Shown here: piece after piece, positions 13,809-29,171 of the stretch | How positions within the stretch are numbered: the stretch's first letter is position 1 | Layout of the letters: each line of letters begins with the position of its first letter | Virus record (IMG/VR): IMGVR_UViG_3300013126_000003 | Span: 1-58,987 of that record | From: a virus | Strand: one strand, 5' to 3' | Length of the DNA: 58,987 nucleotides | The notes under the pieces: generated by a model | Told to the model about the DNA's origin: nothing | What the model saw: the letters and a program-made list of their open reading frames with translations, nothing else | Databases searched by the model: none | Position numbers and translations under genes: made by a program

Positions 13809-13905
13809 TTTGATTTTTGTTAAACGCCCTAATCTATTTGTAACTAAGCGCAGAATCTTTAGGGCTAAACGCTACGCTTAGTGTATGCCTTCACCGGCAC
13901 ATGTC

Positions 13906-14169
13906 TTACTGCCAACCAAGAGCCTCAACCACTTCTTTGTATGGCATAAGCAGGTTGAAAAACTCTCCGCTCTTTAGGTACACTACGCACAGATTATCAT
14001 CTATGATGTGCTCATCATCAGGCGCTTGCTGTCTAACCACTGCCACCTCGTTGAGGTCAATGATTGTCTCGGCAATTGCGATGTGTTCTACACCTGTAAC
14101 GTCAAGCATTTTTAGATTGACAATTTCAATCTTGGTCTTTAGGAATCTTCCCATGTTATTCAAATCCAA
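13906..14169 (-). CDS. Hypothetical protein, 87 aa
   Basis: A small alpha/beta protein: DNNLCVVYLKSGEFFNLLMPYKEVVEALGW at the C-terminus looks like a short beta-hairpin plus helix. It overlaps the upstream gene by 14 bases. Function unknown. The 97 bases between its stop and the SSB-like start hold inverted repeats (CTAAGCG/CGCTTAG and GCCCTAA/TTAGGGC) that could be a leader or operator. Confidence 0.6.
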   Translation of the reverse strand: MDLNNMGRFLKTKIEIVNLKMLDVTGVEHIAIAETIIDLNEVAVVRQQAPDDEHIIDDNLCVVYLKSGEFFNLLMPYKEVVEALGWQ

Positions 14170-14368
14170 TTTGAGATTCTAACAAAAGCAGTCTCTCGTT
14201 TAAGCACTGAATGTATGCGGCCATTATGACGTGTTGCATTTGAAGCAATGCCTGCTGTGCATTGTCTAGCTCAAAAAACTTATCTTCAAATAAGAAAGCA
14301 CCTAGCTTAACGTGCTTCTCCCGTAGTTCGTCGCGCTCGACAACAAGTCTCTCTATAAATGTACTCAT
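14156..14368 (-). CDS. Hypothetical helical protein, 70 aa
   Basis: The start at 14368 (MSTFIERLV) is preferred to one 36 bases further upstream because it gives a 4-base ATGA overlap with the preceding gene. The protein is almost entirely helical and coiled-coil-like (RDELREKHVKLG..., NAQQALLQMQHVIM). Function unknown. Confidence 0.6.
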   Translation of the reverse strand: MSTFIERLVVERDELREKHVKLGAFLFEDKFFELDNAQQALLQMQHVIMAAYIQCLNERLLLLESQIGFE

Positions 14369-14613
14369 TTGTTCAACCCCTTGGCAATGCCCTTTACTCC
14401 GCACATCTGTGCTGTCTCAAGCTCAGTCATGGCGATACTGAAGCAACGCTTGGCTTCGCCGTCCTCAGTGGATTGCAGCTCATTGTTGCAATAGTCAATG
14501 GCATCAGCCATCATGCGCTTGAATGTTCCAATCTTATCGTCAGCGGACGGATTGAAATTGATGTGACATCTCGACTCCCCGAGTGTCAACTCTTTCTTTG
14601 GTGTTAAAATCAT
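14365..14613 (-). CDS. Hypothetical protein, 82 aa
   Basis: Contains KRMMADAIDYCNN and a helical C-terminus (FSIAMTELETAQMCGVKG) like that of small uncharacterised phage proteins that monitor nucleotides or bind other proteins. It is coupled by 4-base overlaps on both sides. Function unknown. Confidence 0.6.
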   Translation of the reverse strand: MILTPKKELTLGESRCHINFNPSADDKIGTFKRMMADAIDYCNNELQSTEDGEAKRCFSIAMTELETAQMCGVKGIAKGLNK

Positions 14614-14867
14614 AACTTGTCTTTGTAGAGATTTGCATTGTAATAGTGCTCTTCAATCTTCTCGCTGTAGTAAGCGATTGATATAGCAACGAGCATCACG
14701 ATAGATGAGACCGAGCCTACTGATTGTATCTGCTCAGAATACACATTGAATATTGACCACCAAACAGCGCAGAACGCTGATAAGACACAGGCCAATACAG
14801 CTATAATAGCTGAGACGATTGTCAAGGTGTCGAACACCTGATAGAGAATTGTGTTTTTGTTTTTCAT
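14610..14867 (-). CDS. Small membrane protein with two TM segments, 85 aa
   Basis: Two hydrophobic segments (about residues 12-35 and 50-66) separated by WSIFNVYSEQIQSVGS, with a short charged C-terminus. It may alter the host membrane, but no family was recognised. It follows the structured RNA region and overlaps the next gene by 4 bases. Confidence 0.6.
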   Translation of the reverse strand: MKNKNTILYQVFDTLTIVSAIIAVLACVLSAFCAVWWSIFNVYSEQIQSVGSVSSIVMLVAISIAYYSEKIEEHYYNANLYKDKL

Positions 14868-14882
14868 AGATTTAAGTTTAGC

Positions 14883-14984
14883 AGTCAGGACAGGACTCGA
14901 ACCTGTACCTACGCAATCGGTTTGGTACTGCCACTTCCGTGGTGATCCCTTTTCGTTGTGCTACCCAATTACACGCACCTGACT
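14883..14984 (-). ncRNA. tRNA-like RNA, unusual or degenerate tRNA
   Basis: Read on the minus strand, a perfect 7-bp acceptor-like stem (AGTCAGG / CCTGACT) encloses a D-arm-like segment with TAATTGGGTAG between GTG and CAC, and a textbook T arm (ACAGG-TTCGAGT-CCTGT). The interval between the D and T arms is about 50 bases instead of 22-40 and holds hairpins CCAC-GGAA-GTGG and GTACC...GGTAC. I cannot place a standard anticodon arm, so no amino acid is assigned. No CCA is encoded. It could be a tRNA with an insertion, a decaying tRNA, or a tRNA mimic. Confidence 0.55.
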
Positions 14985-14988
14985 ATTT

Positions 14989-15133
14989 GTGGCTATCTCG
15001 TCAGCCACCAACGTCCCTGATTAAATTGATAGGTATATGTAGGAACATTGAGTCCTCGCGCTCTCCCATCACGCATTCAATCTGTGTCTAAGCCAACCGC
15101 GAGACAACGGTACAAGGCCAATTTTAGAGCGCG
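14989..15133 (-). ncRNA. Structured non-coding leader next to the tRNA-like RNA
   Basis: This gap between the exonuclease gene and the tRNA-like element has no convincing ORF but has nested complementarity: an 8-bp long-range pair CGCGCTCT (15057-15064) with AGAGCGCG (15126-15133), an inner hairpin with ACCG/CGGT and GCC/GGC arms, and a hairpin with arms GTGGCT (14989-14994) and AGCCAC (15003-15008). This suggests one folded transcript together with the tRNA-like domain. Function unknown. Confidence 0.4.
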
Positions 15134-15135
15134 AA

Positions 15136-15879
15136 TTAATACAGTAGTTCTGCAATGAAGTAGTCATCAATACTCTCGGTGGGGTTGGGCCCGAAGAACT
15201 TATTAAAAACCTCAATAGCCTTCTCGACCTTAGCCTCACCACTCTTAATGAAATCCTCAGTAGGACGGAACACACCGAGTTGATGTGTCGTCTTGTCAGC
15301 CACAAAGAATACGAGTGGCTTACCAAACAACTGCTGATAGATGTAACATTGAGAGTCGTAATTGTAACTCTTCGCTGAGTACTTAAACTTCTGAATATCT
15401 CCTGTGGTCTTGAGGTCGATTATCATTTCATCTGTAATGATATCCGCCTTCCCCTTCCACATCATGCCTTTAATTTCTCCAACGGCAGGTTCCTCATATA
15501 GGTTGCCGTCTTTGTATATCTCATCAAAGAAGTAGATGTTACTCTTGATGGTGCTAACAAGGGCGTCAATCGCATCCTTCTCTTCCTTTAACATGCAGAA
15601 TGGTATGCTGTTCTCACGAACAAAGTCCTTGTAGATGTTGGTATTACGACTGCTTGCCTCAACAAACTTAGTTAGTACCGCCTTCTCCGGTTCAATAAGT
15701 GATTGGTGAAAGTACCTACCCTCAGCAAAACTCTTATTGTTAGGTCGGCTTACGCCGAACAACTTTGGGTTGGACAGCAACGTGCCGATGTCTGAGTTGG
15801 ATAGGTATTGCTTACCCACCCCTCCGTAATACTCAGAGTCATCTCTGAGTGTGTCAATGACTGATTGGTTATTGTGCAT
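15136..15879 (-). CDS. RecE/RecB-like PD-(D/E)XK exonuclease
   Basis: 247 residues from the start at 15879, chosen over one 27 bases upstream because AAGGAGGAAGG lies just before it. Catalytic core: GKADIITDEMIIDLKTTGD (D...DLK) followed by YDSQCYIYQ, the QxxxY element of RecB-family nucleases (PDDEXK_12-like). It probably resects double-stranded ends to give single strands for the annealing protein encoded immediately upstream, with which it overlaps by 11 bases. Together they form a RecE/RecT-type recombination pair. Confidence 0.88.
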   Translation of the reverse strand: MHNNQSVIDTLRDDSEYYGGVGKQYLSNSDIGTLLSNPKLFGVSRPNNKSFAEGRYFHQSLIEPEKAVLTKFVEASSRNTNIYKDFVRENSIPFCMLKEEKDAIDALVSTIKSNIYFFDEIYKDGNLYEEPAVGEIKGMMWKGKADIITDEMIIDLKTTGDIQKFKYSAKSYNYDSQCYIYQQLFGKPLVFFVADKTTHQLGVFRPTEDFIKSGEAKVEKAIEVFNKFFGPNPTESIDDYFIAELLY

Positions 15880-16525
15880 TGCCTTCCTCCTTGAATAGGT
15901 TAGCAATCTCTTTCTTTACTGCCGCACTCATCTTGTACTTGCGGTTAAGACGAACGCCAATCTCCTCTAACCCCAAGTCTTTGTTGGCCTCGATGTATTT
16001 AATCACCTTGTCCCAAGTCTCAGAGCCTTTCTTTAGCTCGATCAATTGAGCAGTTCCCGCCGCCACCGCCGGAGCAGCCGCTGTTTTTGCGGGCGTCTCT
16101 GTCTCGGGCAAGTCTTCTCCTGCATAGATGTAGATGCCAAGTCCAAACATAGCTAGGTTCTTCACTAAGCAACGCATGATTGTCTTGTTGATATCAAACA
16201 TGGTAGCTGCATCAACACTCTTCTCACCGTACTTAGTCATGTACGTGTAAGGCTCGCTCTTCATTGCTCGGTTAGCGCCGTCCATTACAGGAAGCCACAT
16301 CTTCAATGTCTCTCCCTCAATGGTCACCTGAGTGTGACACATGTATCCGAGTGATGGGTCGTACTCAGTATTGAATACCTCATACGTGGCGTTTGGATAT
16401 GCCTTCTTCACCTCGCTCCAAGCCCAAGCCCAAGACAGGTAGGTCATCCCGCTATTAGCTTTCTTTTCAACGTGGTCGTTAACATTGATGGCCGATAGCC
16501 TTTCAAAAACACTTTGCTTTTCCAT
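15869..16525 (-). CDS. DUF1071 single-strand annealing protein
   Basis: 218 residues. N-terminal YLSWAWAWSEVKKAYPNA and DINKTIMRCLVKNLAMFGLG are the hallmark segments of the DUF1071 family, Rad52/Sak-like phage recombinases. The C-terminus is a helical tail after an Ala/Pro-rich linker (residues 150-165). It should coat and anneal single-stranded DNA produced by the neighbouring exonuclease. The two genes overlap and are co-transcribed. Confidence 0.87.
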   Translation of the reverse strand: MEKQSVFERLSAINVNDHVEKKANSGMTYLSWAWAWSEVKKAYPNATYEVFNTEYDPSLGYMCHTQVTIEGETLKMWLPVMDGANRAMKSEPYTYMTKYGEKSVDAATMFDINKTIMRCLVKNLAMFGLGIYIYAGEDLPETETPAKTAAAPAVAAGTAQLIELKKGSETWDKVIKYIEANKDLGLEEIGVRLNRKYKMSAAVKKEIANLFKEEGNAQ

Positions 16526-16536
16526 TTGATTTGATT

Positions 16537-16845
16537 TTAAGATTTGATTTTTACTGAACTTGCAATGTTGCTAAGCACCTGAGCATAGTCTTTGTCTTTG
16601 TGCTTGTGTTCCTCCGCCCTGCGAACGCCGTTCATGATTGCGCTCTGCTGAATTGGTAGACCACGCTCCGACATGTAGTCTCTTAGAGCGTAGATAGGGA
16701 TTGGTCTTGTCACGCATAGATAGAACAACATCTGTCTTGCATCTACTACGGTTTGCTTCTTGGTTTGAACGAACAAGGACTCTTCCTCAACACCAAATGC
16801 TGAGGCCACCTTGGTAACGTACTGATTGAAAATATCTTTCTTCAT
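16537..16845 (-). CDS. DnaA domain IV-like protein, 102 aa
   Basis: The whole protein resembles the DnaA C-terminal domain: VTKVASAFGVEEESLF, then VVDARQMLFYLC (the ARQ/ARHM-type helix) and IMNGVRRAEEHKHKD at the position of the DNA-contacting helix. There is no ATPase. It is the second such protein in this genome and may bind origin or operator sites. It leads the recombination operon and has a promoter just upstream (16865-16897). Confidence 0.7.
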   Translation of the reverse strand: MKKDIFNQYVTKVASAFGVEEESLFVQTKKQTVVDARQMLFYLCVTRPIPIYALRDYMSERGLPIQQSAIMNGVRRAEEHKHKDKDYAQVLSNIASSVKIKS

Positions 16846-16864
16846 TAGATTGGATTTGATTCTA

Positions 16865-16897
16865 CAAATATAGTTAGTTTCTTGTTAGTTTACACAA
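16865..16897 (-). promoter_or_regulatory. Bacteroidota-type promoter for the recombination operon
   Basis: On the minus strand TATATTTG (16872-16865) fits the TAnnTTTG -7 element; a TTG about 22 bases upstream (16897-16895) may be the -33 element. It lies 20 bases before the start of the DnaA-like gene. Confidence 0.65.
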
Positions 16898-16900
16898 TGA

Positions 16901-17335
16901 TTAGTAATCTTTTTTCCACAAATTTAACATCTCTTCTATGAACAAGTTGTAAACTTGAGAGACCACGGTGTCGAAGTCTCGGTTGGTCATCGTAATCCAC
17001 ACGCCGTCAAAGAATCCTTCAAAGTGGTAGGCCACTCCGGGCCTCTCTCCAAGCACTTGGATGTTGATGCCAAAGGCAAACGTCAGCATAGAGCTGCACT
17101 CTTTCTGCACATGTGTCTTGGGATATCGCTTCTCAAACTCTTGGCGAGGCACCTCTCTCATCGTGCTGATGAAGTCGTGTATCTCTATACGCTTCTTGAA
17201 CCACATCTTCTCAAGGTTTTTGATGTAGTACTTGTCGGGCCTGAGCCTTCCTTGCTCCTCCACTACAGAGTTGTGTATAGCTAAATCCTTTTTGCTTAAC
17301 GTGTCCTCACCTATTGGCTTGTATAGATTACTCAT
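16901..17335 (-). CDS. Hypothetical protein, 144 aa
   Basis: Unknown function. The C-terminal half contains an aromatic beta-rich segment (GVAYHFEGFFDGVWITMTNRDFDTVVSQVYNLF cut by short loops) typical of a small alpha/beta fold. It overlaps the upstream gene by 4 bases. Confidence 0.6.
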   Translation of the reverse strand: MSNLYKPIGEDTLSKKDLAIHNSVVEEQGRLRPDKYYIKNLEKMWFKKRIEIHDFISTMREVPRQEFEKRYPKTHVQKECSSMLTFAFGINIQVLGERPGVAYHFEGFFDGVWITMTNRDFDTVVSQVYNLFIEEMLNLWKKDY

Positions 17336-17556
17336 TTACTATCTCCGAATGTTTTGGTGTAAATTCTTTTTAAGTTTAAGTACGCACTACTCACGCTAAA
17401 CACATCAGCATAGTCTAAACATTTTTGTGGTACGGATAATTGGTTGAAAAGAACTCTCGACTCGGCGGTGTCCGTGTCAATGTTGTTAAAGATTAACTCG
17501 AAGAACTCCTCGAGTGTGGCCACGTCGTAGCCTGATAGGATTTGTTTGGTCACCAT
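17332..17556 (-). CDS. Hypothetical protein, 74 aa
   Basis: Helical small protein of unknown function. Its ATG overlaps the end of a 52-codon frame just upstream, and its stop overlaps the next start by 4 bases, so it is part of a tightly packed accessory operon. Confidence 0.55.
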   Translation of the reverse strand: MVTKQILSGYDVATLEEFFELIFNNIDTDTAESRVLFNQLSVPQKCLDYADVFSVSSAYLNLKRIYTKTFGDSK

Positions 17557-17708
17557 TGCTTTGCTTTTGCTTCCAAATATCGGAAGTAAAGTTCAACATT
17601 AAATGAACCACCTTTGTCACCGCACTCGGTGAGGGTTTGGCCTCTCCAAAACCTGACGCATTGCATCAGGTTGGAGGGCTCTTGAAGATTTCTAATGGGT
17701 GTAATCAT
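17550..17708 (-). CDS. Hypothetical protein, 52 aa
   Basis: A frame starting at ATG 17708 (MITPIRNLQEPSNLMQCVRF) begins in a 4-base ATGA overlap with the preceding gene and ends inside the start of the next one. This fills an otherwise empty 148-base gap exactly, in the style of this operon. Ends in FRYLEAKAKQW. Function unknown. Confidence 0.6.
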   Translation of the reverse strand: MITPIRNLQEPSNLMQCVRFWRGQTLTECGDKGGSFNVELYFRYLEAKAKQW

Positions 17709-18037
17709 GTTGCGTCTCTTAAGGTACAAGCATACTCATAATTCTCTTCGGCAATAGCCTTACTTAGGGCTTCGTCAATCGTTGTGAAGTGTTCACTCGC
17801 AGTCCATCGAACTCCGTATGTCGGCATGACGCTTCTTCTGCAATTGCACATGAGCATCTCTCTATCGGTTGGTTCGTTAGATACGTTGATCGACTGAGAC
17901 CCACACGCTTGGCAGTAGACAACGTCAAGCACCTTATACACCTGACCTTTTACTCTTGTCTGACATCTGTCTGCTACAGCGCTTGGGGTGGAGTTTAACG
18001 CCACCACTCGGTCGCCTATGTTGAATCTATTTTGCAT
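17705..18037 (-). CDS. Zinc-binding hypothetical protein, 110 aa
   Basis: N-terminal beta-rich domain like a small SH3 barrel (FNIGDRVVALNS, GQVYKVLDVVYC), with a CxxC (CQAC) and a second pair (CNC) that could hold zinc. The C-terminus, ALSKAIAEENYEYACTLRD, resembles the UVR motif of UvrB/UvrC and of clp adaptor proteins. Function not assignable. Confidence 0.6.
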   Translation of the reverse strand: MQNRFNIGDRVVALNSTPSAVADRCQTRVKGQVYKVLDVVYCQACGSQSINVSNEPTDREMLMCNCRRSVMPTYGVRWTASEHFTTIDEALSKAIAEENYEYACTLRDAT

Positions 18038-18063
18038 AATGGTTTGTTGGTTTTCATACGAAG

Positions 18064-18285
18064 TTATGTATTATGTGGTTCTAAGCCAATCTCTCCACCC
18101 TCGTAGTTGATTTGCTCGTTGATTGACTCCATGATGTAATGACCTGTAAGCACACTGCTTAACACCTCGGCGGCCATGCGGTCGTCGCACTTGAACTTAT
18201 CCCTCACATCATTGATGTGCCACAGGTTGTCTACAAAATACCCCGCGTCCTTCAGGACTTGCTTTGCTTGTTCAATTGTATTCAT
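18064..18285 (-). CDS. Hypothetical protein, 73 aa
   Basis: MNTIEQAKQVLKDAGYFVDNLWHINDV is a segment widely seen in small Bacteroidota phage proteins of unknown role, followed by LSSVLTGHYIMESINEQI. Overlaps the upstream gene by 4 bases. Confidence 0.65.
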   Translation of the reverse strand: MNTIEQAKQVLKDAGYFVDNLWHINDVRDKFKCDDRMAAEVLSSVLTGHYIMESINEQINYEGGEIGLEPHNT

Positions 18286-18623
18286 AGCTTGAATTTTTGG
18301 AAGGTTTGTTCAAAGGTGTTGGTGATTGATTCTTTGTCAACTTTAACATCACCAATATGTCCTGCAAAAGTCCATTTTAGAGAATTGTTTTTAGTAGTTA
18401 GATTAGAACCTTCTCCATAAGCAAACACTTTCTCGGCAGACGTAGCAAGAGCTTCTTTGATTACCTTCTCCGTGTACTCATTAAGTTGCTCAGGTGTGAA
18501 GAAGTAGCCTTCTTTTTCTACTACTCCCGTTATTGTTTCTAACCAATGAGAATGGTCATTACATACAACTTTTTCTTGTTCACCATTTACAGGTAAATAA
18601 ACTTCTCGTTTGATTGGTGTCAT
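18282..18623 (-). CDS. Hypothetical protein, 113 aa
   Basis: Contains FTPEQLNEYTEKVIKEAL followed by a Thr/Asn-rich stretch. The DNA from here to about 19616 looks more AT-rich, with more TTT/AAA codons, than its neighbours, suggesting a separately acquired block. Function unknown. Confidence 0.6.
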   Translation of the reverse strand: MTPIKREVYLPVNGEQEKVVCNDHSHWLETITGVVEKEGYFFTPEQLNEYTEKVIKEALATSAEKVFAYGEGSNLTTKNNSLKWTFAGHIGDVKVDKESITNTFEQTFQKFKL

Positions 18624-18625
18624 AG

Positions 18626-18871
18626 TTACTTGATATTGGTTAGTGGATAAGCGTTGAGTATAGAGTTATCATCGACACCCCATATAGGTCTAAATGAACC
18701 CTCTGAAATTTCTACATGGTCTATTGGCGTTATCTCAGCCTTATCACTTGCTGCTTTAAGTGCTGCTTCAACGTGTAGTTTAGCAAATTCAATCAGCCAT
18801 TCATCAACTGATGTGCTTTGAAACCTTTGTGCATTATTGGATAAAAATTGTTTTGCTGTTGGTATACTCAT
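18626..18871 (-). CDS. Conserved Bacteroidota phage protein, 81 aa
   Basis: Contains EWLIEFAKLHVEAALKAASDKA and ends SILNAYPLTNIK, both recurring features of small uncharacterised proteins in Bacteroidota phages and prophages. Two bases separate it from the next gene and it overlaps the previous one by 4. Function unknown. Confidence 0.65.
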   Translation of the reverse strand: MSIPTAKQFLSNNAQRFQSTSVDEWLIEFAKLHVEAALKAASDKAEITPIDHVEISEGSFRPIWGVDDNSILNAYPLTNIK

Positions 18872-19239
18872 AGTTGTTTTATAGTTAGTTCCTCACCTGT
18901 TAGAGCGAAGTAAAGGTTTTGAAGTTGGTGAACGTATTTGATTGAAATAATTGTTTCTAAATTATTGCTTTTTAGATGCACAAAATCATCATCATTATAG
19001 CTGACTAAAAGAAACAAATCAGTATCTAAAACCAAATCATCGCCATCCTTCTCAAACCCAAACTTCACCAACCATTCTTCTGTTAGTGGGATGGGTTTAA
19101 TCAAGTCATATTTGGCATGGATAAAATTTCCTTGCATCGTTTTTAGAGTACACACACCATCTGACATTAAATTCTCAATAGTGTTTAAGCAACCGTCATT
19201 TGAAACTAAGTTACCTATACGAAGTTCATTTGCTTTCAT
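18868..19239 (-). CDS. Conserved Bacteroidota phage protein, 123 aa
   Basis: Begins MKANELRIGNLV, continues with PIPLTEEWLVKFGFEK and ends HQLQNLYFALTGEEL. These three blocks define a common but uncharacterised family of Bacteroidota phages and prophages, so the start is secure. It is flanked by 4-base overlaps. Confidence 0.75.
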   Translation of the reverse strand: MKANELRIGNLVSNDGCLNTIENLMSDGVCTLKTMQGNFIHAKYDLIKPIPLTEEWLVKFGFEKDGDDLVLDTDLFLLVSYNDDDFVHLKSNNLETIISIKYVHQLQNLYFALTGEELTIKQL

Positions 19240-19616
19240 AGTTCAAAAAGGTATTTACCACAAGCTACTACTTGTCCTTGTGAGTTGGTTGTTGTTTGAG
19301 GTTCTTCTATTTTATTCATACCATCATCAGTTATTCCTATTACTTCAATTTCAAAGTCGAAGTGAGTAGGAAAAGTAAATACACCTTCTTCTAGTGGTGG
19401 AAGCAAAGGCACTCCTTCAAGGATTGGTGAGTTGTTGAGTGGCAAATGAAATAGTATCTCAAAACACTCATTGAGATATGAATTTTCTACCTCAGAAAAT
19501 CGTATCACATTTCGGTATCTCATCGAATAAACATTGAGATTGCTTGGCATATCTACTAGATGCTCTTTTTCTACAACAAGTAGATATTCGTTTGTTTTGA
19601 TTAGTTCTTTTTTCAT
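19236..19616 (-). CDS. Hypothetical protein, 126 aa
   Basis: Begins with a Lys-rich segment, then NEYLLVVEKEHLVDM, and ends with TNSQGQVVACGKYLFEL. It is the first gene of the AT-rich block; a copy of the recurrent palindrome lies 14 bases upstream of its start. Function unknown. Confidence 0.6.
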   Translation of the reverse strand: MKKELIKTNEYLLVVEKEHLVDMPSNLNVYSMRYRNVIRFSEVENSYLNECFEILFHLPLNNSPILEGVPLLPPLEEGVFTFPTHFDFEIEVIGITDDGMNKIEEPQTTTNSQGQVVACGKYLFEL

Positions 19617-19630
19617 GTCGGAAGTTTTAG

Positions 19631-19652
19631 AGAGTACGGTTGACCGTACTCT
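19631..19652. repeat. Recurrent palindrome, copy 1
   Basis: Core AGTACGGTTGACCGTACT (19633-19650) with 10-base arms in all. It sits between the stop at 19657 and the start at 19616 of two minus-strand genes. Confidence 0.9.
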
Positions 19653-19656
19653 TTGG

Positions 19657-20097
19657 TTAAAGTTGTTTGCGTTCTACCTTGTATATCTCATACCCTCTGC
19701 TCTTAAGGAACTCGATAGCGTCACGCTCACTCATGGTGCTAGGTTCAGGTATGAATTGTGCATTGGCTTCCTCAGCCGCAGCCACCACAGACGCCTTGTC
19801 CATCTCCTCTCTCAGCTTGTTGCGCTTTTTGCGCTGCTCGGCATACCTCTTGACGCGCTCTTTGTGTGAGGCAATAATTCGATCGACCATGTCCGATGTT
19901 GGCATAGACACGATCCAATTACACACGTCGGTGGTTACCGATGCAACGTACCCCTCATGTCTTAAGGTGGTGATGATAGATGCATCGACCTTGTGGTTCT
20001 TGATTATTGATGATACAACAAAGGTCTTTTGATGAGCGCAGTCGTCGATGAATGCGCTGTACTTCTTGCGGGTCTTGTCTTTAATTGTGTTTACCAT
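19657..20097 (-). CDS. Hypothetical basic protein, 146 aa
   Basis: N-terminal VNTIKDKTRKKYSAFIDD and a long, strongly basic, helical middle (KERVKRYAEQRKKRNKLREE) suggest nucleic-acid binding. The C-terminus ends with the phage-like EFLKSRGYEIYKVERK. It overlaps the upstream gene by 7 bases and is followed directly by palindrome copy 1. Confidence 0.6.
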   Translation of the reverse strand: MVNTIKDKTRKKYSAFIDDCAHQKTFVVSSIIKNHKVDASIITTLRHEGYVASVTTDVCNWIVSMPTSDMVDRIIASHKERVKRYAEQRKKRNKLREEMDKASVVAAAEEANAQFIPEPSTMSERDAIEFLKSRGYEIYKVERKQL

Positions 20098-20585
20098 GAC
20101 TGAAAGATTTGTGGTTTATTTAATATGTGTGGTTCAAGTTCGTCGACAGCACTTTCGATAAAGTCGTACTCAGACTCATACTCCTCGCCATTAAATACAT
20201 ACATACCGGTGTCCTCGTTGTACCTAAAGTTTATACAGCTGCCGTCGTACATCTTGATACTAGCAGGGCGTATCGGATTGAACACAGCCTTGCCATATAG
20301 CCCCATGCCTGACTCATCAAACCGATGCTCATACTCAACCTTAAAGCGTCTGCCGATAAGCATGATAGTAGATAGAGCAGGTGACCACTTGGATAAGAAT
20401 TGATAGTCACCTTTGTCCCATCCTTGTATATCGAAAAGATAGGGTGCATTGTACCTTTCACATGCCAACCACTCAGGGCGAACCCCCTCTGTAGATAGCA
20501 TCATCTTGCTGAACAGCGCATCGACCTTGTCTAGCGCAGAGGGACTTCCCTTGAAAGTCACATTGTTGTTGCACCAATTAGGCAT
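20091..20585 (-). CDS. YubB/Api92-like ferredoxin-fold protein
   Basis: 164 residues starting MPNWCNNNVTFKGS, the signature start of the Api92-like/YubB (ferredoxin-like domain) family found on phages and plasmids. It also has the conserved DIQGWDKG...WSPALS and EYEHRFDESGMGLYG segments. Its biochemical function is unknown. It overlaps the next gene by 7 bases. Confidence 0.8.
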   Translation of the reverse strand: MPNWCNNNVTFKGSPSALDKVDALFSKMMLSTEGVRPEWLACERYNAPYLFDIQGWDKGDYQFLSKWSPALSTIMLIGRRFKVEYEHRFDESGMGLYGKAVFNPIRPASIKMYDGSCINFRYNEDTGMYVFNGEEYESEYDFIESAVDELEPHILNKPQIFQSW

Positions 20586-21012
20586 TTCTTTGCGTGTTAT
20601 TGTCGTTCAACATTTGCTTGATGTCATTGAATAATCGCTCGTCATCGAAACGAACTGCATCAAAAAAGTCATCGCCGTCAATCTCAATAGTGGCCGTAAC
20701 ATCCAACCGCCCCGACCTTGTCTCGCAAGTATCGTAGTGGACGGTGGCAAACTCTCCATATGTACCTCCGCAGTTCAATGAGTGTACCCTAGCATGGTTC
20801 ATAGCTATGGTTACGATGCGCTTAATGACGTCGTCAGGTATCACATCTACCGTGAGTACTTGCTCATCGGGCAGTACGCTGACGCTGTTAGATAGGTGGT
20901 TAATAATACCAAGCAAGTCATCGCTAGTGAATATCGAGCCCGTAAAAATTGATTGAGGTCTTTGAATATTATCCTTAACCTCGTTAATGATTTGTAATAC
21001 CTGTGCTTTCAT
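20578..21012 (-). CDS. Hypothetical protein, 144 aa
   Basis: An alpha/beta protein with RIVTIAMNHARVHSLNCGG and a C-terminal half that looks like a beta sandwich (CETRSGRLDVTATIEIDGDDFFDAV). Function unknown. Confidence 0.6.
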   Translation of the reverse strand: MKAQVLQIINEVKDNIQRPQSIFTGSIFTSDDLLGIINHLSNSVSVLPDEQVLTVDVIPDDVIKRIVTIAMNHARVHSLNCGGTYGEFATVHYDTCETRSGRLDVTATIEIDGDDFFDAVRFDDERLFNDIKQMLNDNNTQRNA

Positions 21013-21301
21013 TTCTGTTTATTCTAATTGGTTCCATTCTGTGATACACCTCTTGCCAATGATTGTGTCCTTGGCTTGTGCGAGACCATATGATTCTCGC
21101 ATCTACAACGTCTCTCCAATCCCGTAGCATTTTTACTCCGCCATTAAAGAAGACTTGCTCTTCTAAAAATCTTTCTCTCAAGATTATAGCTGATGCCTTA
21201 GAGAGTCCTTGGTCTTCACGGACTTTGATTACGAAAGACCTTTTCCACTCCCGCCACTCTTCAGGTGTCATCCATGCTTCAAAAAATTCATATCGTGTCA
21301 T
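20984..21301 (-). CDS. Hypothetical Trp-rich protein, 105 aa
   Basis: Begins MTRYEFFEAWMTPEEWREW and is rich in Trp and Arg. It overlaps the following gene start by 29 bases; a later start is possible but there is no good internal Met. Palindrome copy 2 lies about 30 bases upstream of its start. Function unknown. Confidence 0.55.
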   Translation of the reverse strand: MTRYEFFEAWMTPEEWREWKRSFVIKVREDQGLSKASAIILRERFLEEQVFFNGGVKMLRDWRDVVDARIIWSRTSQGHNHWQEVYHRMEPIRINRNESTGITNH

Positions 21302-21329
21302 GTGGGTAGTGTTAAATGGTGAGAGAAAA

Positions 21330-21351
21330 AGAGTACGGTTGACCGTACTCT
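21330..21351. repeat. Recurrent palindrome, copy 2
   Basis: Identical core AGTACGGTTGACCGTACT (21332-21349). The outer arm reaches the stop codon of the amidoligase gene. Confidence 0.9.
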
Positions 21352-22603
21352 ATTTGATATCAGCAGATTCGTCAGTAAGGTCAACGTCATTGTACAATGA
21401 GCTATACTCAACGAACAACTCAACCTTACGCATCATCTTCTCCTTGCCTACCACCGACTCAATGTGCTTGTGTAACTCAGACGTTGAGTCGCAAAGCATA
21501 CGCAGTACATCGCGCTCACTTGCACCGAAGTTTCGCATGATGATACGCAACAGCTCAACACGCCACAATAAGTTCTTCACGTTCTTCACGGCAGGGAAGA
21601 TGCGGAACTCCAAGGTATCGCCACGAACGTAGATGCTCGAGCGTTTGTCTCGGTTAAGGTACTCATGCTTCTTCTTAGCGAACGAATAGCCCACGTCAAG
21701 ACGCTTGACGTACAAAGAGTAAAGCACAGGGAAAAATCCCGACACGCCCTCGAATATCTCCTCGACCGTGTACTTACTTGATGCAACGTGGATGTGACCA
21801 CCGCATCGGTTGCTGAACGTGCCGTTGATGTGTTGCTTAAGCAACTCGCTACTCTCAATGTCATCTTCGTGTAGCGTACCGAACAGGTCATACACCGGAC
21901 TGATGAGCTCATACCCGCTGTCGCTATCCAAACTAGCATCTGTCTCTTTAGTCCAACCATGCGGTAGGTCTCTAAAGCTACAGCTTATTCTCGCATCGAG
22001 GTCTTCCTTCTCAACTTCAAACCCCATAGTAAACTCAGTACCCTCGGGTGTTCTCCAACCACGCCCACCACCACGGTGATACGAAGCAAGATGGTCGTCA
22101 GACGCAGAGACTGATGACCGTGATGGATAATACGGAGGGTTTGGCGAAGTTTCTTCATCGTCATCGTCCTCGTCATACGGCGCGTCGTCGCAGTGACGCC
22201 ACTCGTCGACCGAGTCATAGTAATACACGTCGCGGTGATTGGCAACACGCTCACTGATGTAGTACATATCATTCGTCTCACAACGAACATAGTCCTCATC
22301 ATCGGTTATGAAATACCCCTCATCGCCTCCGCCGTTGAGGACACCCCATGTGCAGTCATCTCGGTAGGCATACCCACTACCCTCGACCCACACAATATCT
22401 CGAGACTCCTCCTCATGCTCATGGAATAAATCACCGCAGATTGTTGCATGAATCTCGTCTGAGTCGTCATCTCTGTGGCAGACCTCGCCCGATGCTAACA
22501 CTTGAATATCAGAGTCGCCGTTACGATACCACTCACCTGAGTGAATACCGATTGTGAATTGAGAGCACTCATCCATGTAAGGAAGAACTAATTTTTGTGA
22601 CAT
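21350..22603 (-). CDS. Putative amidoligase (COOH-NH2 ligase, glutamine-synthetase-like)
   Basis: 417 residues. The C-terminal half carries the amidoligase-family motifs GFEVE (194-198), a KETDASLDSDSGYELISP strand pair, CGGHIHV (267-273) and LEFRIFPAV (about 347-355). These supply the Glu/His metal and ATP ligands of the glutamine-synthetase-like fold. The N-terminal 180 residues are unusually acidic with repeated Cys/His pairs (VCHRDDD, CETND, WRHCDD), perhaps zinc-binding or substrate-binding modules. The family is predicted to form amide bonds on peptides or cell-wall compounds with ammonia from a glutaminase, and the adjacent gene encodes one. The substrate is unknown. Confidence 0.82.
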   Translation of the reverse strand: MSQKLVLPYMDECSQFTIGIHSGEWYRNGDSDIQVLASGEVCHRDDDSDEIHATICGDLFHEHEEESRDIVWVEGSGYAYRDDCTWGVLNGGGDEGYFITDDEDYVRCETNDMYYISERVANHRDVYYYDSVDEWRHCDDAPYDEDDDDEETSPNPPYYPSRSSVSASDDHLASYHRGGGRGWRTPEGTEFTMGFEVEKEDLDARISCSFRDLPHGWTKETDASLDSDSGYELISPVYDLFGTLHEDDIESSELLKQHINGTFSNRCGGHIHVASSKYTVEEIFEGVSGFFPVLYSLYVKRLDVGYSFAKKKHEYLNRDKRSSIYVRGDTLEFRIFPAVKNVKNLLWRVELLRIIMRNFGASERDVLRMLCDSTSELHKHIESVVGKEKMMRKVELFVEYSSLYNDVDLTDESADIK

Positions 22604-22632
22604 ATGAATTGAATTAAAGTGGTTGAAAATTT

Positions 22633-22654
22633 AGAGTACGGTTGACCGTACTTT
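22633..22654. repeat. Recurrent palindrome, copy 3
   Basis: Core AGTACGGTTGACCGTACT (22635-22652) directly after the stop of the amidotransferase gene and 31 bases before the amidoligase start. Confidence 0.9.
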
Positions 22655-23529
22655 TAGTTGGCGACTCCATCGTACATTGCATCACAACATACTCTGCACA
22701 GGGGTGCTTGATACGTCTCATCGTATACACACAGCTTGTCCTCAAGACACGATTCGCATCGTTCGTAATTCGTGTCACGAGAATAGTTGAAGTCGGGTTT
22801 ATCAAAGGGGTTCCCGCTCTCCTCTCCGTAGTCCGTGAAGTCATCCGACTCGGTAAAATCCTCACGCTTGTCATACGTTCGGGTCTTGGGATTCCACTTA
22901 TACTTCCTCTCCCAATCGGTATCTTCCCAATTGTCATCTCTGCTATATCTAAAGCTCGGCATAGACCTGCCACCAACGTCAAGGTATCGGCCAATTTTAT
23001 AGGTGGTATTGCTGAACCAACAGCCCATGTCCCACACACCTGCCTCCTCGTTAATGATGTACGCATCATTGTCTGTGTTGAGGAATAGCAGTTTACTGCC
23101 ACCGATGTATCCCGACACGAGCTCATAGATGGCGTCGTTATGTATCCAATCAACAGGTAGCTTCTTGAGTACAAGTTCGTTGAACAAATTGGTATCGCTC
23201 TTGTCCTTGTCTCGACCGATAGAGGATATCATGCCGTTATGCACGAAGCCCCACTTGTCATTGGTAATAAATGGATGGCAGTTCTCAAGATTGATACGGC
23301 CATGTGTCCCGATACGGAAGTGGATGACCACCTGACTCTCCGCATGGTCTTTGCGCACACTTAGGTAGTGGTTGTAGAACTTGTCAAAGTTCTTCATCTC
23401 CTTGTGGGCGGTTAGCTTCTTGTCTTTTAGGTACAAGAGTCCCGCTCCGTCCTTGTTGTTGTCCCAACACGTCTTGAGTATGCTTTTCTCAAGCGTCACG
23501 TCGTTAGGGTTTAGAATGGCAATGCACAT
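22654..23529 (-). CDS. Class II glutamine amidotransferase with C-terminal zinc site
   Basis: 291 residues. The protein starts MCIAI: after Met removal Cys2 is the N-terminal nucleophile of the Ntn fold. Other family blocks are DGAGLLY, HFRIGTHG, NCHPF and FVHNG. The enzyme domain spans about 1-190. The C-terminus adds a charged linker and a probable zinc knuckle (CESC...CRVCC). Such enzymes release ammonia from glutamine; the natural user is the amidoligase encoded 50 bases downstream. A well-formed promoter precedes the gene, so the two are probably one transcription unit with the palindrome between them. Confidence 0.88.
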   Translation of the reverse strand: MCIAILNPNDVTLEKSILKTCWDNNKDGAGLLYLKDKKLTAHKEMKNFDKFYNHYLSVRKDHAESQVVIHFRIGTHGRINLENCHPFITNDKWGFVHNGMISSIGRDKDKSDTNLFNELVLKKLPVDWIHNDAIYELVSGYIGGSKLLFLNTDNDAYIINEEAGVWDMGCWFSNTTYKIGRYLDVGGRSMPSFRYSRDDNWEDTDWERKYKWNPKTRTYDKREDFTESDDFTDYGEESGNPFDKPDFNYSRDTNYERCESCLEDKLCVYDETYQAPLCRVCCDAMYDGVAN

Positions 23530-23573
23530 AGTGAAATAGATTTAAGTTTAACACGATTTTTTAATTGACTCTG

Positions 23574-23605
23574 CAAAGATACGACATTACTTTGCAAAAA
23601 GCAAA
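23574..23605 (-). promoter_or_regulatory. Promoter of the amidotransferase-amidoligase unit
   Basis: Minus strand: TTTG (23605-23602), a 20-base spacer, then TATCTTTG (23581-23574). This matches the Bacteroidota -33/-7 consensus exactly. It lies 45 bases before the start codon. Confidence 0.88.
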
Positions 23606-23610
23606 TAAAG

Positions 23611-23883
23611 CTACTTTAGAACTTTCTTCGCTTTGGCAAGTAGGCTGTCTATATCCCCGCCTTTTAGTGCGCTTTTGATTTGCGATCGTAGCACATCTGA
23701 CACGACAGAGGTAAGGTCTGCATCGCACGGCTTCCCGTCTATTTGATACTCACCACTTGGCTCATCCAATTGCAAGTCACTCACTTTTATCCACCTACCT
23801 TCACGGTCTTTCTTGTACACCTCTGCTCCATAGGCAAAGGCTATAATAAGCGGTAGCATTTTCTTACACTCGTGTCTTGTCAT
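23611..23883 (-). CDS. Hypothetical protein, 90 aa
   Basis: Begins MTRHECKKMLPLIIAFAYG and continues with YKKDREGRWIKVSDL and EYQIDGKP; this looks like a small phage protein with a beta-rich middle. Palindrome copy 4 lies 25 bases upstream. Function unknown. Confidence 0.6.
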   Translation of the reverse strand: MTRHECKKMLPLIIAFAYGAEVYKKDREGRWIKVSDLQLDEPSGEYQIDGKPCDADLTSVVSDVLRSQIKSALKGGDIDSLLAKAKKVLK

Positions 23884-23908
23884 TTGTTTAGGTATTGGTT
23901 AATTGAAA

Positions 23909-23926
23909 AGTATGGTTGACCGTACT
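23909..23926. repeat. Recurrent palindrome, copy 4
   Basis: AGTATGGTTGACCGTACT, one change from the common core; the left arm T gives a G-U pair if the RNA folds. It is adjacent to the stop codon at 23927. Confidence 0.88.
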
Positions 23927-24148
23927 CTAGTTATTGTTGTTCTTGCTCTCAAGCGTGTTGACAACAGCAAGGCATAGCGACACTCCCGCACCGACAATGA
24001 ATACACCGACGGAAAAGAAGTTTTGCGCCACCTCAAGATAGTTAACCCAAAAGGTTAAACTGATTACGGCGCAAAGGAATGAATAGGTGAGTGCAAATAG
24101 CACTGCATAGGTGCTAAGCACCACGAAAGGTTTAAGGGTTTTGTGCAT
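23927..24148 (-). CDS. Small membrane protein with two TM segments, 73 aa
   Basis: Two hydrophobic stretches (about residues 8-33 and 43-65) with a short loop WVNYLEVAQNFF. It may modify the host envelope. No family recognised; four bases separate it from the preceding gene. Confidence 0.6.
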   Translation of the reverse strand: MHKTLKPFVVLSTYAVLFALTYSFLCAVISLTFWVNYLEVAQNFFSVGVFIVGAGVSLCLAVVNTLESKNNNN

Positions 24149-24152
24149 ATAA

Positions 24153-24392
24153 TTATGGTTTTAGTTGAATCATTGAACAGCTTTGACCTTTGTAGATAAG
24201 CACCACAGTGCTATCGTCAATGGTATACTTGTATAGGCTACCTCCTCGCTCTTCATGCAGTAGCTCCATGACTACCCTACTCTTGACTACGTCAGGTTCT
24301 TTGGATGTGCAATCAGTTGAGATTGTCTCGATACCCCAAATCATTACCCCTATGGTTAGGACGATGTCCCAAGACGGCATAATTTTTCTCAT
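24153..24392 (-). CDS. Small exported or membrane-anchored protein, 79 aa
   Basis: Positively charged start followed by a hydrophobic segment (SWDIVLTIGVMIWGIETIS), then a Cys (STDC) and a beta-rich domain with KYTIDDSTVVLIYKG. It could be inserted in the inner membrane by a signal anchor. Function unknown. Confidence 0.55.
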   Translation of the reverse strand: MRKIMPSWDIVLTIGVMIWGIETISTDCTSKEPDVVKSRVVMELLHEERGGSLYKYTIDDSTVVLIYKGQSCSMIQLKP

Positions 24393-24416
24393 GTTGATAT
24401 TGAATTTAAGTTTTAC

Positions 24417-24707
24417 TTAGCAGTCCCCATTGCAATAGCCTCGCTCCTCACAATCCCCGTATCCCATCTCGCACTTGAACTCGTTGTGGGTGTAGTTGAG
24501 TTCAAAGTCTAGTTCTTGTTGCACCTCTATATCAATTTGCTCTTGCCAAAACTTAGGTAGGTCGGTGTATTTAACCACGCTCTCATTGCCCTTGCAGTCA
24601 TCAATAACCTCTTGTTTGTCGGTATAGCGAACTATCTTCCCGCTCCACTCAAATTGTAGGACGTGGTCATTCGCCTCATCGTAAAGTACATATATGTTAT
24701 CGTTCAT
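24417..24707 (-). CDS. Cys-rich hypothetical protein, 96 aa
   Basis: Acidic protein ending with four cysteines in CEMGYGDCEERGYCNGDC, a likely metal-binding tail. Its leader contains promoter 24786-24817 and palindrome copy 5, so it heads its own transcription unit. Function unknown. Confidence 0.65.
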   Translation of the reverse strand: MNDNIYVLYDEANDHVLQFEWSGKIVRYTDKQEVIDDCKGNESVVKYTDLPKFWQEQIDIEVQQELDFELNYTHNEFKCEMGYGDCEERGYCNGDC

Positions 24708-24723
24708 GTTGTGAAAGGTTTTG

Positions 24724-24741
24724 AGTATGGTTGACCGTACT
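24724..24741. repeat. Recurrent palindrome, copy 5
   Basis: AGTATGGTTGACCGTACT in the 5' leader, downstream of a clear promoter and 16 bases before the start codon at 24707. There is no gene end immediately upstream, so it is not simply a terminator. Confidence 0.9.
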
Positions 24742-24785
24742 CTTGGTTAGTGCCGTCATACTATACTTTGGTTGGTAAGAAAGTG

Positions 24786-24817
24786 CAAAGATACAACAAA
24801 GTTATATCGAATGCAAA
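24786..24817 (-). promoter_or_regulatory. Bacteroidota-type promoter
   Basis: Minus strand: TTTG (24817-24814), a 20-base spacer, TATCTTTG (24793-24786). It reads into palindrome copy 5 and the Cys-rich gene. Confidence 0.88.
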
Positions 24818-24844
24818 TAAGTTCTTTGCAACAATTGTAAACGA

Positions 24845-25042
24845 CTACCACTCAAGTTCACCGCACTCACATAGCATGTCGTTGTACTTGAATACGCCTG
24901 TCTCTAGGTAGGCCATGACTTCGCCCTTACAAGCCGACTCATAGACCTTACCTTCGGTAGTCCTAAGCGTATAGAGGCCGTCATCGGTTGGTTGAATAGT
25001 GGTGTTCACTAGTAAGTGAATGAGGATGTACATTGTGTTCAT
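24845..25042 (-). CDS. Hypothetical protein, 65 aa
   Basis: Small protein with a beta-rich middle (DDGLYTLRTTEGKVYES) and C-terminal Cys pair (CECGELEW). Palindrome copy 6 lies 27 bases upstream of its start. No promoter element was seen in its leader. Function unknown. Confidence 0.6.
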   Translation of the reverse strand: MNTMYILIHLLVNTTIQPTDDGLYTLRTTEGKVYESACKGEVMAYLETGVFKYNDMLCECGELEW

Positions 25043-25069
25043 ATATACGAGGGGTTTTGATTAGCGAAG

Positions 25070-25087
25070 AGTACGGTTGACCGTACT
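25070..25087. repeat. Recurrent palindrome, copy 6
   Basis: Core AGTACGGTTGACCGTACT in the leader of the 65-residue protein gene, downstream of a terminator. Confidence 0.9.
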
Positions 25088-25103
25088 TTTGAAATTGGGT
25101 TAG

Positions 25104-25124
25104 TATTAGTGTTACACACTAATA
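25104..25124. repeat. Perfect inverted repeat TATTAGTGT / ACACTAATA
   Basis: Nine-base arms around TAC, between the terminator of the 255-residue protein gene and palindrome copy 6. It could be an operator or an RNA hairpin. Confidence 0.7.
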
Positions 25125-25156
25125 AAAACAAAATACGCCCACCATATAGGTGAGCG
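25122..25156 (-). terminator. Rho-independent terminator
   Basis: Minus strand: 8-bp stem CGCTCACC / GGTGGGCG around TATAT (one G-T pair), followed by TATTTTGTTTTT. It ends the transcript of the 255-residue protein gene 30 bases after its stop. Confidence 0.85.
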
Positions 25157-25185
25157 CATCTTGCTTCGAGGGGTGAATTGGTATC

Positions 25186-27204: not shown

Positions 27205-28812
27205 ATGGACTCAACACTTGGATATTCTCCGAAAGACCTTCGCTTCGATGCAGACGCGAGAGGTAAGTTAATCAAAGGTGTAGTAAAAATGTCTCGTGCT
27301 GTCAAGAGTACTTTGGGCCCTAGCGGGAACACGGTGCTAATTGAGTCGGCCGAGCACACCCATGGGCTGACCGTCACCAAGGATGGTGTTACGGTGGCCA
27401 AATCTATTTTTCTCATTGACCCGGTTGAGAACCTAGCGGTCCGTATGATGAAAGAGGCGGCAGATCGCACGGCGACTTCTGCAGGTGATGGTACCACTAC
27501 GGCAATTGTTCTTACTGAGGCGCTTGTGCTTGCGGGTAATGAGCTGATGAGTCCTGACTTGAATCGCACTGAGGTGCTTCGCTCTCTTGTGGAGCAGTCA
27601 AACGGTGTGGTGGACAAGCTCAAGAAGCATTCAAAGAAGTTATCCAACAAGATGCTTGTGGATGTGGCTACAATTTCAGCCAACAATGACAAGTCGGTTG
27701 GGAAAATTATCGCTGACGTGTACAAAGAAGTGGGCAAGAACGGTGTGGTGACGGTTGAGAAGAGTCAAACAAGCGAGACATACGCTGAGGTGACCAAGGG
27801 GATCAAGATTCCTAGAGGGTATTTGAGCAATTTGTTCGCCAATAATCAGCGAAGAGATGAGTGTGTGCTTGAGGACGTGGACATTTTGGTGGCTGACATT
27901 GAGATTTCAAACTTACTGCAGCTTGAGAACATCCTCAAACCAATTATTCAAGAAGGCCGGAAGCTATTTATCATTGCTCCGTGCAATGTGAACGTGGTCA
28001 ATACCCTTGCAGCTAACGTGATGAAGGGGAATTTGAAGGTGTGCGCGGTGCCTCCGCCTAATTTTGGGTACAAACAGCACGAGCTCATGCAAGATATCGC
28101 GGTGAGTGTGGGTGCAACCTACTTCAGCGAGAAGACCGGGGACGATTTGAGCCTCATTACATACGCGGACCTAGGGCATGCTACTAAAGTTATCGTCAAT
28201 AACGAGCAAGCGATCGTCATTCGTTCCAATGTCAAGTCTAATGATGAGAAAATTGCTGAGCGCGTGACCCAATTGTGGCAGTCACATGAGGAGGCGACCC
28301 GCAAAGCTGACAAAGATTTTATTTTAGAACGTATTGCTTCCCTAACAGGGGGCATCGGGGTGATATTTGCCGGTGGCAACACTGACCTTGAGCAAAAAGA
28401 GTTGTATGATCGCATTGATGACGCCGTGTGCGCGGTGCGTTCGGCCCTTGAGGAGGGTATATTGCCGGGTGGCGGCATGTCGCTCGCGTATATGGTGAAC
28501 GACAAGGCTGAGGACGGAATGAGCAAGGAGAAGATGGCTGCACGCAACATCTTAAACCTAGCCCTTGTGTCGCCAATGAACCAAATCATTGAGAACGCAG
28601 GGCTGTGCGCCAACAATTTATACAATGGCCGTGAGGAGTTTGGTGAGGGAGTCAATGTGAAGACCGGCGAGAAGGGTAATCTCATCCAAATGGGGGTGAT
28701 TGACCCGCTTAAGGTGACTCGATCGGCCCTTGAGAACGCAGTGAGTGTGGCCACAACAATTCTTAGTACTAATGCCGTGGTGACCATGGCTCGAACTTAT
28801 GATGCTCAGTAA
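27205..28812 (+). CDS. groEL: Phage GroEL-type chaperonin (60 kDa subunit)
   Basis: 535 residues, full length for the equatorial-intermediate-apical layout. The nucleotide-binding loops TLGPSGNTV (36-44) and GDGTTTA (94-100) are intact, the RIDDAV segment keeps the catalytic Asp expected at the D398 equivalent, and GILPGGG and DPLKVTRSALENAVSVA mark the returning equatorial domain. The C-terminal GGM-repeat tail of bacterial GroEL is missing (ends ARTYDAQ). It should form ATP-driven folding rings with the GroES encoded two genes on, probably for capsid or giant virion proteins. It is well diverged from bacterial GroEL, so an old phage gene. Confidence 0.95.
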   Translation: MDSTLGYSPKDLRFDADARGKLIKGVVKMSRAVKSTLGPSGNTVLIESAEHTHGLTVTKDGVTVAKSIFLIDPVENLAVRMMKEAADRTATSAGDGTTTAIVLTEALVLAGNELMSPDLNRTEVLRSLVEQSNGVVDKLKKHSKKLSNKMLVDVATISANNDKSVGKIIADVYKEVGKNGVVTVEKSQTSETYAEVTKGIKIPRGYLSNLFANNQRRDECVLEDVDILVADIEISNLLQLENILKPIIQEGRKLFIIAPCNVNVVNTLAANVMKGNLKVCAVPPPNFGYKQHELMQDIAVSVGATYFSEKTGDDLSLITYADLGHATKVIVNNEQAIVIRSNVKSNDEKIAERVTQLWQSHEEATRKADKDFILERIASLTGGIGVIFAGGNTDLEQKELYDRIDDAVCAVRSALEEGILPGGGMSLAYMVNDKAEDGMSKEKMAARNILNLALVSPMNQIIENAGLCANNLYNGREEFGEGVNVKTGEKGNLIQMGVIDPLKVTRSALENAVSVATTILSTNAVVTMARTYDAQ

Positions 28813-28814
28813 TT

Positions 28815-29171
28815 ATGATCGACATTATACATGTGGCCAAGGCGTGCCACGAGGCGAACAAGGTGTACTGCGAGAGTCTTGGTGACTTTACGCAGGAGCA
28901 TTGGGAGAATGCACCCCAATGGCAGAAGGACAGCGCGGTGAGCGGGGTCAAGCACATCATTGACAACCCTGACGTTACCGCTGAGCAGATGCATGACAAT
29001 TGGATGGCTGAGAAGAAGGCTGACGGGTGGCGATTTGGGATAACCAAGGACGCATTTGCTAAGACACACCCCTGCCTCATCCCATATAACTTCCTTCCTA
29101 TTGAGCAACGGATGAAGGACACACTATTTATTTCAATCGCAAGATCATTCTACAATGAAGCCAATCGGTAA
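28815..29171 (+). CDS. RyR-domain protein, 118 aa
   Basis: The single domain matches the RyR (ryanodine-receptor-type) repeat family as found in phages: ENAPQWQKDSAVSGVKHI, ENPD-like DNPDVTAEQMHDNWM, KADGWRFG and HPCLIPYNFLPIEQRMKD. RyR domains in phages have no proven role; a ligand- or protein-binding function is likely. It starts 2 bases after groEL and overlaps groES by 17 bases, so all three are one unit. Confidence 0.85.
   Translation: MIDIIHVAKACHEANKVYCESLGDFTQEHWENAPQWQKDSAVSGVKHIIDNPDVTAEQMHDNWMAEKKADGWRFGITKDAFAKTHPCLIPYNFLPIEQRMKDTLFISIARSFYNEANR

Follow-up and report, generated by a model that had tools for sequence, protein, structure and literature searches.

What do two adjacent phage genes, one resembling a glutaminase and the other an amide-forming ligase, do together in an infected cell? 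The question is raised by a viral sequence of 58,987 bases, a whole IMG/VR record that is referred to here as the window. Its minus strand encodes a class II glutamine amidotransferase (GAT; positions 22654–23529, 291 amino acids) and, 50 nt further on, a glutamine synthetase (GS)-fold, Amidoligase_2-like amidoligase (AMD; 21350–22603, 417 amino acids). An earlier note, made from the sequence alone, placed this two-gene unit at 21350–23529, and these coordinates are exact. Class II GATases use an N-terminal cysteine to free ammonia from glutamine or to cleave gamma-glutamyl amides, while GS-fold ligases form an acyl phosphate from ATP that is then attacked by ammonia or an amine. The window pair is a reduced, two-gene form of a kind known since 2009; its gene order is swapped, and its AMD has an unusual acidic domain.

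The virus and its host

The pair is part of a long gene block whose members are mostly small. By TerL, the closest phage is the podovirus ctfjg026, at 75% identity to the window protein; the TerL proteins of Flavobacterium elemo phages are about 46% identical, and Cellulophaga and Tenacibaculum phages are also among the matches. These relatives, together with promoters of the Bacteroidota type, point to a Bacteroidota-type bacterium as the host. Elsewhere, on the plus strand, a small RyR-domain protein (28815–29171, E = 1.9e-11) directly follows the phage GroEL gene (27205–28812), and a Peptidase M15 resembling D-Ala-D-Ala carboxypeptidases (32417–32935) is a putative endolysin active on wall peptides. 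The latter would become relevant if the GAT/AMD pair modifies the wall.

The glutaminase

GAT begins with Met-Cys and matches Pfam GATase_4 over residues 23–104 (E = 6.8e-7, 28.9 bits against a cut-off of 23). The AlphaFold model has a pLDDT of 81.7, with residues 1–180 mostly above 90, and the Pfam match, the predicted fold and the invariant residues together define these 180 of the 291 residues as a glutaminase domain of the Ntn-fold with an N-terminal cysteine. Aligned with VIA-align, the model fits EgtC (4zfk_D; Z = 14.0, rmsd 4.2, 170 aligned) and the glutaminase domain of GlmS (1xff_A; Z = 13.7, rmsd 3.9, 173 aligned), and it also aligns with GFAT and PurF. The fold separates EgtC from GlmS by less than 1 Z. 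Among NCBIfam profiles, GlmS scores best (E = 7e-7, against 0.04 for EgtC), and the EgtC profile TIGR03442 reaches 13.2 bits against a curated cut-off of 218.65. GAT is not an EgtC equivalog, although the fold is common to both.

The class II glutaminase that had been read from the sequence is borne out by family search, structure prediction and the alignment of relatives. In 43 sequences, the invariant residues are C2, N25, G28, G30, H70, R72, T75, G77, H85, H97, N98, G99, D112 and T113, and all 43 proteins start with Met-Cys. We take R72, T75, N98-G99 and D112 to be the counterparts of the GlmS glutamine-binding and oxyanion residues R73, T76, N98-G99 and D123. As GAT itself lacks a synthase domain, it must either rely on a partner or function as a hydrolase.

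At the C-terminus, residues 258–282 (22684–22758, minus strand) hold the motif CESC...C...CRVCC, which has the zinc-knuckle-like pattern C-x2-C...C-x2-C; the earlier note had named a zinc knuckle on one of the two proteins. A comparable CxxC...CxxC pair occurs in 44 of the 75 GAT relatives that are long enough to judge. At one related locus (L002, 8001–8856; surveyed loci are labeled L), the GAT frame is broken after residue 208 and the part with the zinc knuckle follows in a different frame, which is either a sequencing error or a real frameshift.

The amidoligase

The best Pfam match of AMD is Amidoligase_2 (PF12224), which falls below the cut-off (E = 0.0064, 16.8 of the 22 bits needed). 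Since relatives in the same alignments pass it (L061 with 42.1 bits, L006 with 30.0), the low score of the window protein likely reflects divergence rather than absence of the family. Sequence scores alone being weak, it is the fold and the relatives that settle the assignment. The AlphaFold model has a pLDDT of 89.2, and residues 187–395 (21419–22045, minus strand) form a catalytic core of the glutamine synthetase fold, as judged from fold and invariant residues. This core aligns with glutamine synthetase (2uu7_A; Z = 9.4, rmsd 3.8, 171 aligned) and with YbdK (1r8g_A; Z = 9.1, rmsd 3.8, 182 aligned). Foldseek ranks gamma-glutamylmethylamide synthetase (9qur, E = 3.9e-5) first among PDB entries, with YbdK in the top five. 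Against the predicted viral structures of BFVD, phage amidoligases top the search and make up most of the named matches, including those of Pseudomonas phage tf (E = 1.2e-6), Salinivibrio phage CW02 and Cellulophaga phage phi14:2.

The core carries the motifs GFEVE, D-x-S, E232, GGHIH and EFR, and ten residues are invariant over 49 divergent sequences: G194, E196, E198, D222, E232, G268, H270, R301, E332 and R334. The predicted GS-like amidoligase thus stands on both the alignment of relatives and the predicted fold, with GFEVE and GGHIH both present. Of the GGHIH residues singled out for mutation, G268 and H270 are invariant, while H272 is not essential, since roughly every second relative carries Asn there. 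Key ligands, on whose presence the earlier note had staked its reading, are in place, the catalytic residues of both GAT and AMD being invariant.

The N-terminal part of AMD is more unusual. From the AlphaFold strand pattern, residues 9–140 (22184–22579, minus strand) form an acidic domain of tandem beta hairpins, and residues 11–140 are modeled with a pLDDT of mostly 85–95. The N-terminal 185 residues contain 45 Asp/Glu, 6 Cys and 9 His. A domain both acidic and rich in Cys and His had been described here; the acidic character holds, but the Cys and His residues are common to the nearest relatives only, and on this point the description goes too far. Other lineages carry CxxC/LIM-type zinc arrays in its place (Pfam LIM, E = 3.4e-6 in L217). 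A profile-profile comparison does not support an origin of the acidic domain as a Cys-depleted LIM array (probability 0.2%, E = 0.36), and a profile match to choline-binding autolysin repeats is not significant (E = 0.28).

The pair across viruses

Four GAT relatives were used to scan for related viral contigs; 188 came up, and 80 were retrieved. In every one of the 75 GAT loci with room upstream, meaning that at least 200 bp separate GAT from the contig start, an AMD gene immediately precedes GAT on the same strand. In the reverse direction, two AMD alignments served as queries, and 135 of the 138 loci with room had a GAT next to AMD. After deduplication of the viral loci, 166 GAT genes have an adjacent AMD and six have none, five of these six lying at a contig end and one being a weak match. 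Three AMD loci with no GAT match were inspected. At L217 and L234, the gene after AMD is a different class II GAT (GATase_6, E = 1e-9 and 2e-13), and at L227 no GAT adjoins. The GAT subfamily changes in L217 and L234, and the partnership stays. Both of these loci also carry a recombinase-like gene nearby.

The two genes overlap or lie within 60 nt of each other in 63 of 74 loci. We regard GAT and AMD as a unit of selection because their adjacency is conserved and no third neighboring gene family is constant among the loci. The pairing is far beyond chance, and the pair is under strong pressure to stay together; the consecutive genes noticed in the window are a recurrent arrangement among its relatives, found in phages of Bacteroidota, Methylophilales, Mycobacterium and others. 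The Pfam description of Amidoligase_2, as we understand it, names a glutamine amidotransferase or an AIG2-type cyclotransferase as the gene neighbor, and AMD of the window has the former beside it. Direct searches with the window AMD gave no match in phage records or viral contigs, and its relatives were reached only through GAT and the alignments. One contig scan built from close GAT relatives confirmed no relatives in bacterial genomes, where distant ones may occur.

Gene order in the window

Nearly every other surveyed locus has an AMD before its GAT; in the window, GAT comes first and a single AMD follows. Among deduplicated loci, 163 have the former order and 12 the latter, most of the 12 being second copies in AMD-GAT-AMD arrays. 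Such arrays, in which two paralogous amidoligases surround one GAT, occur in about ten loci (among them L044, L118, L129, L132, L144, L146, L155 and L159), and the window order could be imagined as the remnant of one. The AMD tree (FastTree, with several long branches elsewhere) argues against this: most downstream AMDs of the arrays form a separate clade, and the window AMD groups with the upstream-type AMDs of its nearest relatives, L001, L002 and L013–L015. Because this grouping has a support of 97, the window order probably arose by a local swap rather than from a three-gene array.

Relation to known systems

Iyer et al. reportedly predicted the amidoligase/GAT family of phages in 2009, along with a modification of the wall that would block superinfection. 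Amidoligase (PF12224) and GATase genes have since been noted in the OM43 phages MEP401 and MEP402 and in more than 30 marine viral genomes (PMC10580990), a paper which credits the superinfection idea to Iyer et al. 2009. The MEP401 and MEP402 modules, and that of mycobacteriophage Marvin, consist like the window of the same two families, adjacent and on the same strand. The window GAT is 42% identical to that of MEP402 and 30% to that of Marvin. Unlike in the window, AMD precedes GAT in these modules, their AMDs are only about 20% identical to the window protein and differ in the N-terminal region, and the MEP402 GAT lacks the zinc knuckle. The podovirus ctfjg026 (MW202828) also resembles the window in having an AMD and GAT pair in the early region and dispersed palindromes after gene stops, but its GAT is fused to a GGACT domain, its AMD precedes GAT and is very divergent (E = 1.3e-9).

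A larger cassette has been described as well (Hardies 2013 and Iyer et al., cited in PMC5498523; PMC11945000; PMC3890496, which gives the gene list of UFV-P2). In PMC5498523, it is a seven-gene peptidoglycan modification cassette found in RIO-1/PSA-HP1, phiEco32, LUZ24 and tf phages. Like the window, it contains an amidoligase and a glutamine amidotransferase; its other genes include ATP-grasp, gamma-glutamyl cyclotransferase and additional ligase genes. Searched over the whole window contig, which is possibly incomplete, the cyclotransferase family PF06094 gave no match, while control genomes were positive; COOH-NH2 ligase (PF14395) had no match in the window or in any control genome. The two-gene form can be seen as the seven-gene cassette stripped to its core, and GAT, AMD, glutamine, ATP and a set of candidate acceptors could thus be enough to find out its reaction. 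The pair is a recognized unit already known from phages (PMC10580990; PMC5498523; the two papers draw on Iyer et al.), and PMC11318856 words the role in phiEco32 as if established, with a reference to the same computational study. Our literature search found no experimental test of any member of this kind.

The proposed reaction and its alternatives

Computation gives the folds of both proteins, their conserved active sites and an obligate gene pairing. Because active-site residues are kept in both partners and the pairing is obligate, the most economical reading is a coupled ATP- and glutamine-dependent amide-forming enzyme, which we consider moderately probable, leaving its target aside. GAT and AMD would form, or act as, one two-part enzyme. 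The steps that we infer comprise glutamine hydrolysis, ATP use, contact between GAT and AMD, and the substrate: the N-terminal cysteine of GAT would take the amide nitrogen off glutamine, AMD would use ATP to turn a carboxylate into an acyl phosphate, as in glutamine synthetase, and AMD would then join the activated carboxylate to the ammonia from GAT, or to an amine. The product in the infected cell would be a peptide-like substrate with an amide on one of its carboxylates. The zinc knuckle of GAT and the N-terminal hairpin domain of AMD may serve in docking, either between the subunits or to the substrate. Of the proteins GatD and MurT, the first is a glutaminase of the class I type and the second a Mur ligase. 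In Staphylococcus, these two, like the proposed pair, combine a glutaminase with a separate ATP-dependent ligase that amidates a carboxylate (PMC3267633), a likeness of logic only, with no homology.

For the substrate, our best guess is a tentative one taken from the literature, namely a carboxylate that is free in the stem peptides of peptidoglycan or in their cytoplasmic precursors; amidated peptidoglycan peptides would then alter the wall during infection. Nothing around the pair genes points to peptidoglycan in particular, and this target is an inherited guess, as the papers that name it rest on computational prediction. The claim of amide-bond formation with no named target, as originally made, still appears to be pitched at the right level. 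A result on this pair would decide the 2009 prediction of a wall modification that blocks superinfection, in either direction. A further-reaching reading is that a two-gene system widespread among phages, represented here by a variant whose acidic N-terminal hairpin domain stands where other lineages have zinc arrays, installs an amide or gamma-glutamyl group on a defined host target and thereby reprograms or shields the infected cell. We regard this as doubtful; if true, it would be a covalent route of host modification with no characterized member.

The main rival is a gamma-glutamyl cycle, which shares the ligase step with the coupled enzyme and which we judge rather unlikely. Here AMD, like gamma-glutamylmethylamide synthetase or YbdK, would link the gamma-carboxylate of glutamate to a substrate amine, and GAT would work as a thiol hydrolase in the manner of EgtC, taking the group off or recycling it, and not as an ammonia donor. 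The Foldseek ranking of AMD agrees with this, with 9qur first and YbdK in the top five, as does the structural match of GAT (Z = 14.0) to EgtC, a hydrolase of gamma-glutamyl bonds. The GAT of ctfjg026 is fused to a GGACT (gamma-glutamyl cyclotransferase) domain (E = 7.5e-18), an arrangement more in line with gamma-glutamyl turnover than with simple amidation. The window, however, has no GGACT match, its GAT scores better against GlmS than EgtC in NCBIfam, and two AMD loci pair with GATs of the GATase_6/7 type, a type that occurs in ammonia-donating synthetases. Also in favor of the cycle are published descriptions of a gamma-glutamyl amidoligase together with a cyclotransferase in RIO-1-type phages (PMC5498523) and of amidoligase and cyclotransferase genes in Clostridium prophages (PMC11318856).

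The amide could instead be formed on a phage metabolite, a cofactor or a DNA-base precursor rather than on a wall peptide or protein. The module of MEP-type phages adjoins primase, helicase and DNA polymerase genes, and the GAT and AMD folds are those of cytoplasmic enzymes; yet the neighbors of the pair vary between lineages, and no nucleotide-modification gene was recognized among the searched window proteins, which makes such small-molecule or nucleotide chemistry improbable. A literature search gave no useful link between DNA hypermodification and amidoligases. That GAT and AMD are unrelated and adjacent by coincidence is barely credible for the window: a hairpin between the genes could end transcription, and the gene order is unlike that of nearly all relatives, but the pairing is kept despite the swap. 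For the family, coincidence is already refuted by the pairing in all 75 testable GAT loci and in the deduplicated set. A role in anti-phage defense was also considered and dropped, as PADLOC matched neither protein.

Promoter, hairpins and repeated palindromes

The consensus promoter that had been placed before the pair is located 45 nt ahead of the GAT start codon, as a Bacteroidota-type TTTG-N20-TATCTTTG (23574–23605, minus strand). The window has five such sites, against 1.2 expected. Downstream, the palindrome AGTACGGTCAACCGTACT lies 3–4 nt past the stop codon of both GAT and AMD. Between the genes it forms a terminator-like hairpin at 22635–22652 (minus strand), and after AMD the hairpin AGAGTACGGTCAACCGTACTCT is followed by TTTTCTCTC (21330–21351, minus strand), a tail that makes this the clearest terminator-like case. 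Co-transcription of GAT and AMD is no more than plausible because a terminator-like hairpin follows each stop codon.

These hairpins belong to a near-palindrome, GAGTACGGTCAACCGTACTC, with seven copies between 19635 and 26130, all in one orientation (starts at 19635, 21334, 22637, 23911, 24726, 25072 and 26117). Four of the seven lie 3–9 nt after a minus-strand stop codon, and only some copies have a T-run. The pattern matches 11 times in the window, against 0.27 expected. The copies may be terminators, operator- or stoperator-like sites, or cassette borders. AMD alone lies between the copies at 21334 and 22637, and one might guess that these were the recombination points for the swap in gene order. 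The podovirus ctfjg026 (L009) has its own dispersed palindrome, TGTCGTTAACGACA, in 14 copies over 13748–25168, including copies directly after AMD and GAT; the placement is like that in the window, but the sequence differs.

Seven related phages carry two to five matches per locus (0–2 mismatches) to the bacterial parS consensus TGTTTCACGTGAAACA, a site absent from the window. They lie 0.4–3 kb upstream of the AMD gene (L001, 1373–2418; L002, 3736–4811; L013, 2048–4137; L014, 2540–4325; L015, 2619–4327; L017, 2822–3541; L070, 3025–3147) and may recruit a host or phage ParB. In a further phage, L004 (PV036454), a gene for a ParB-like protein lies near that of the amidoligase.
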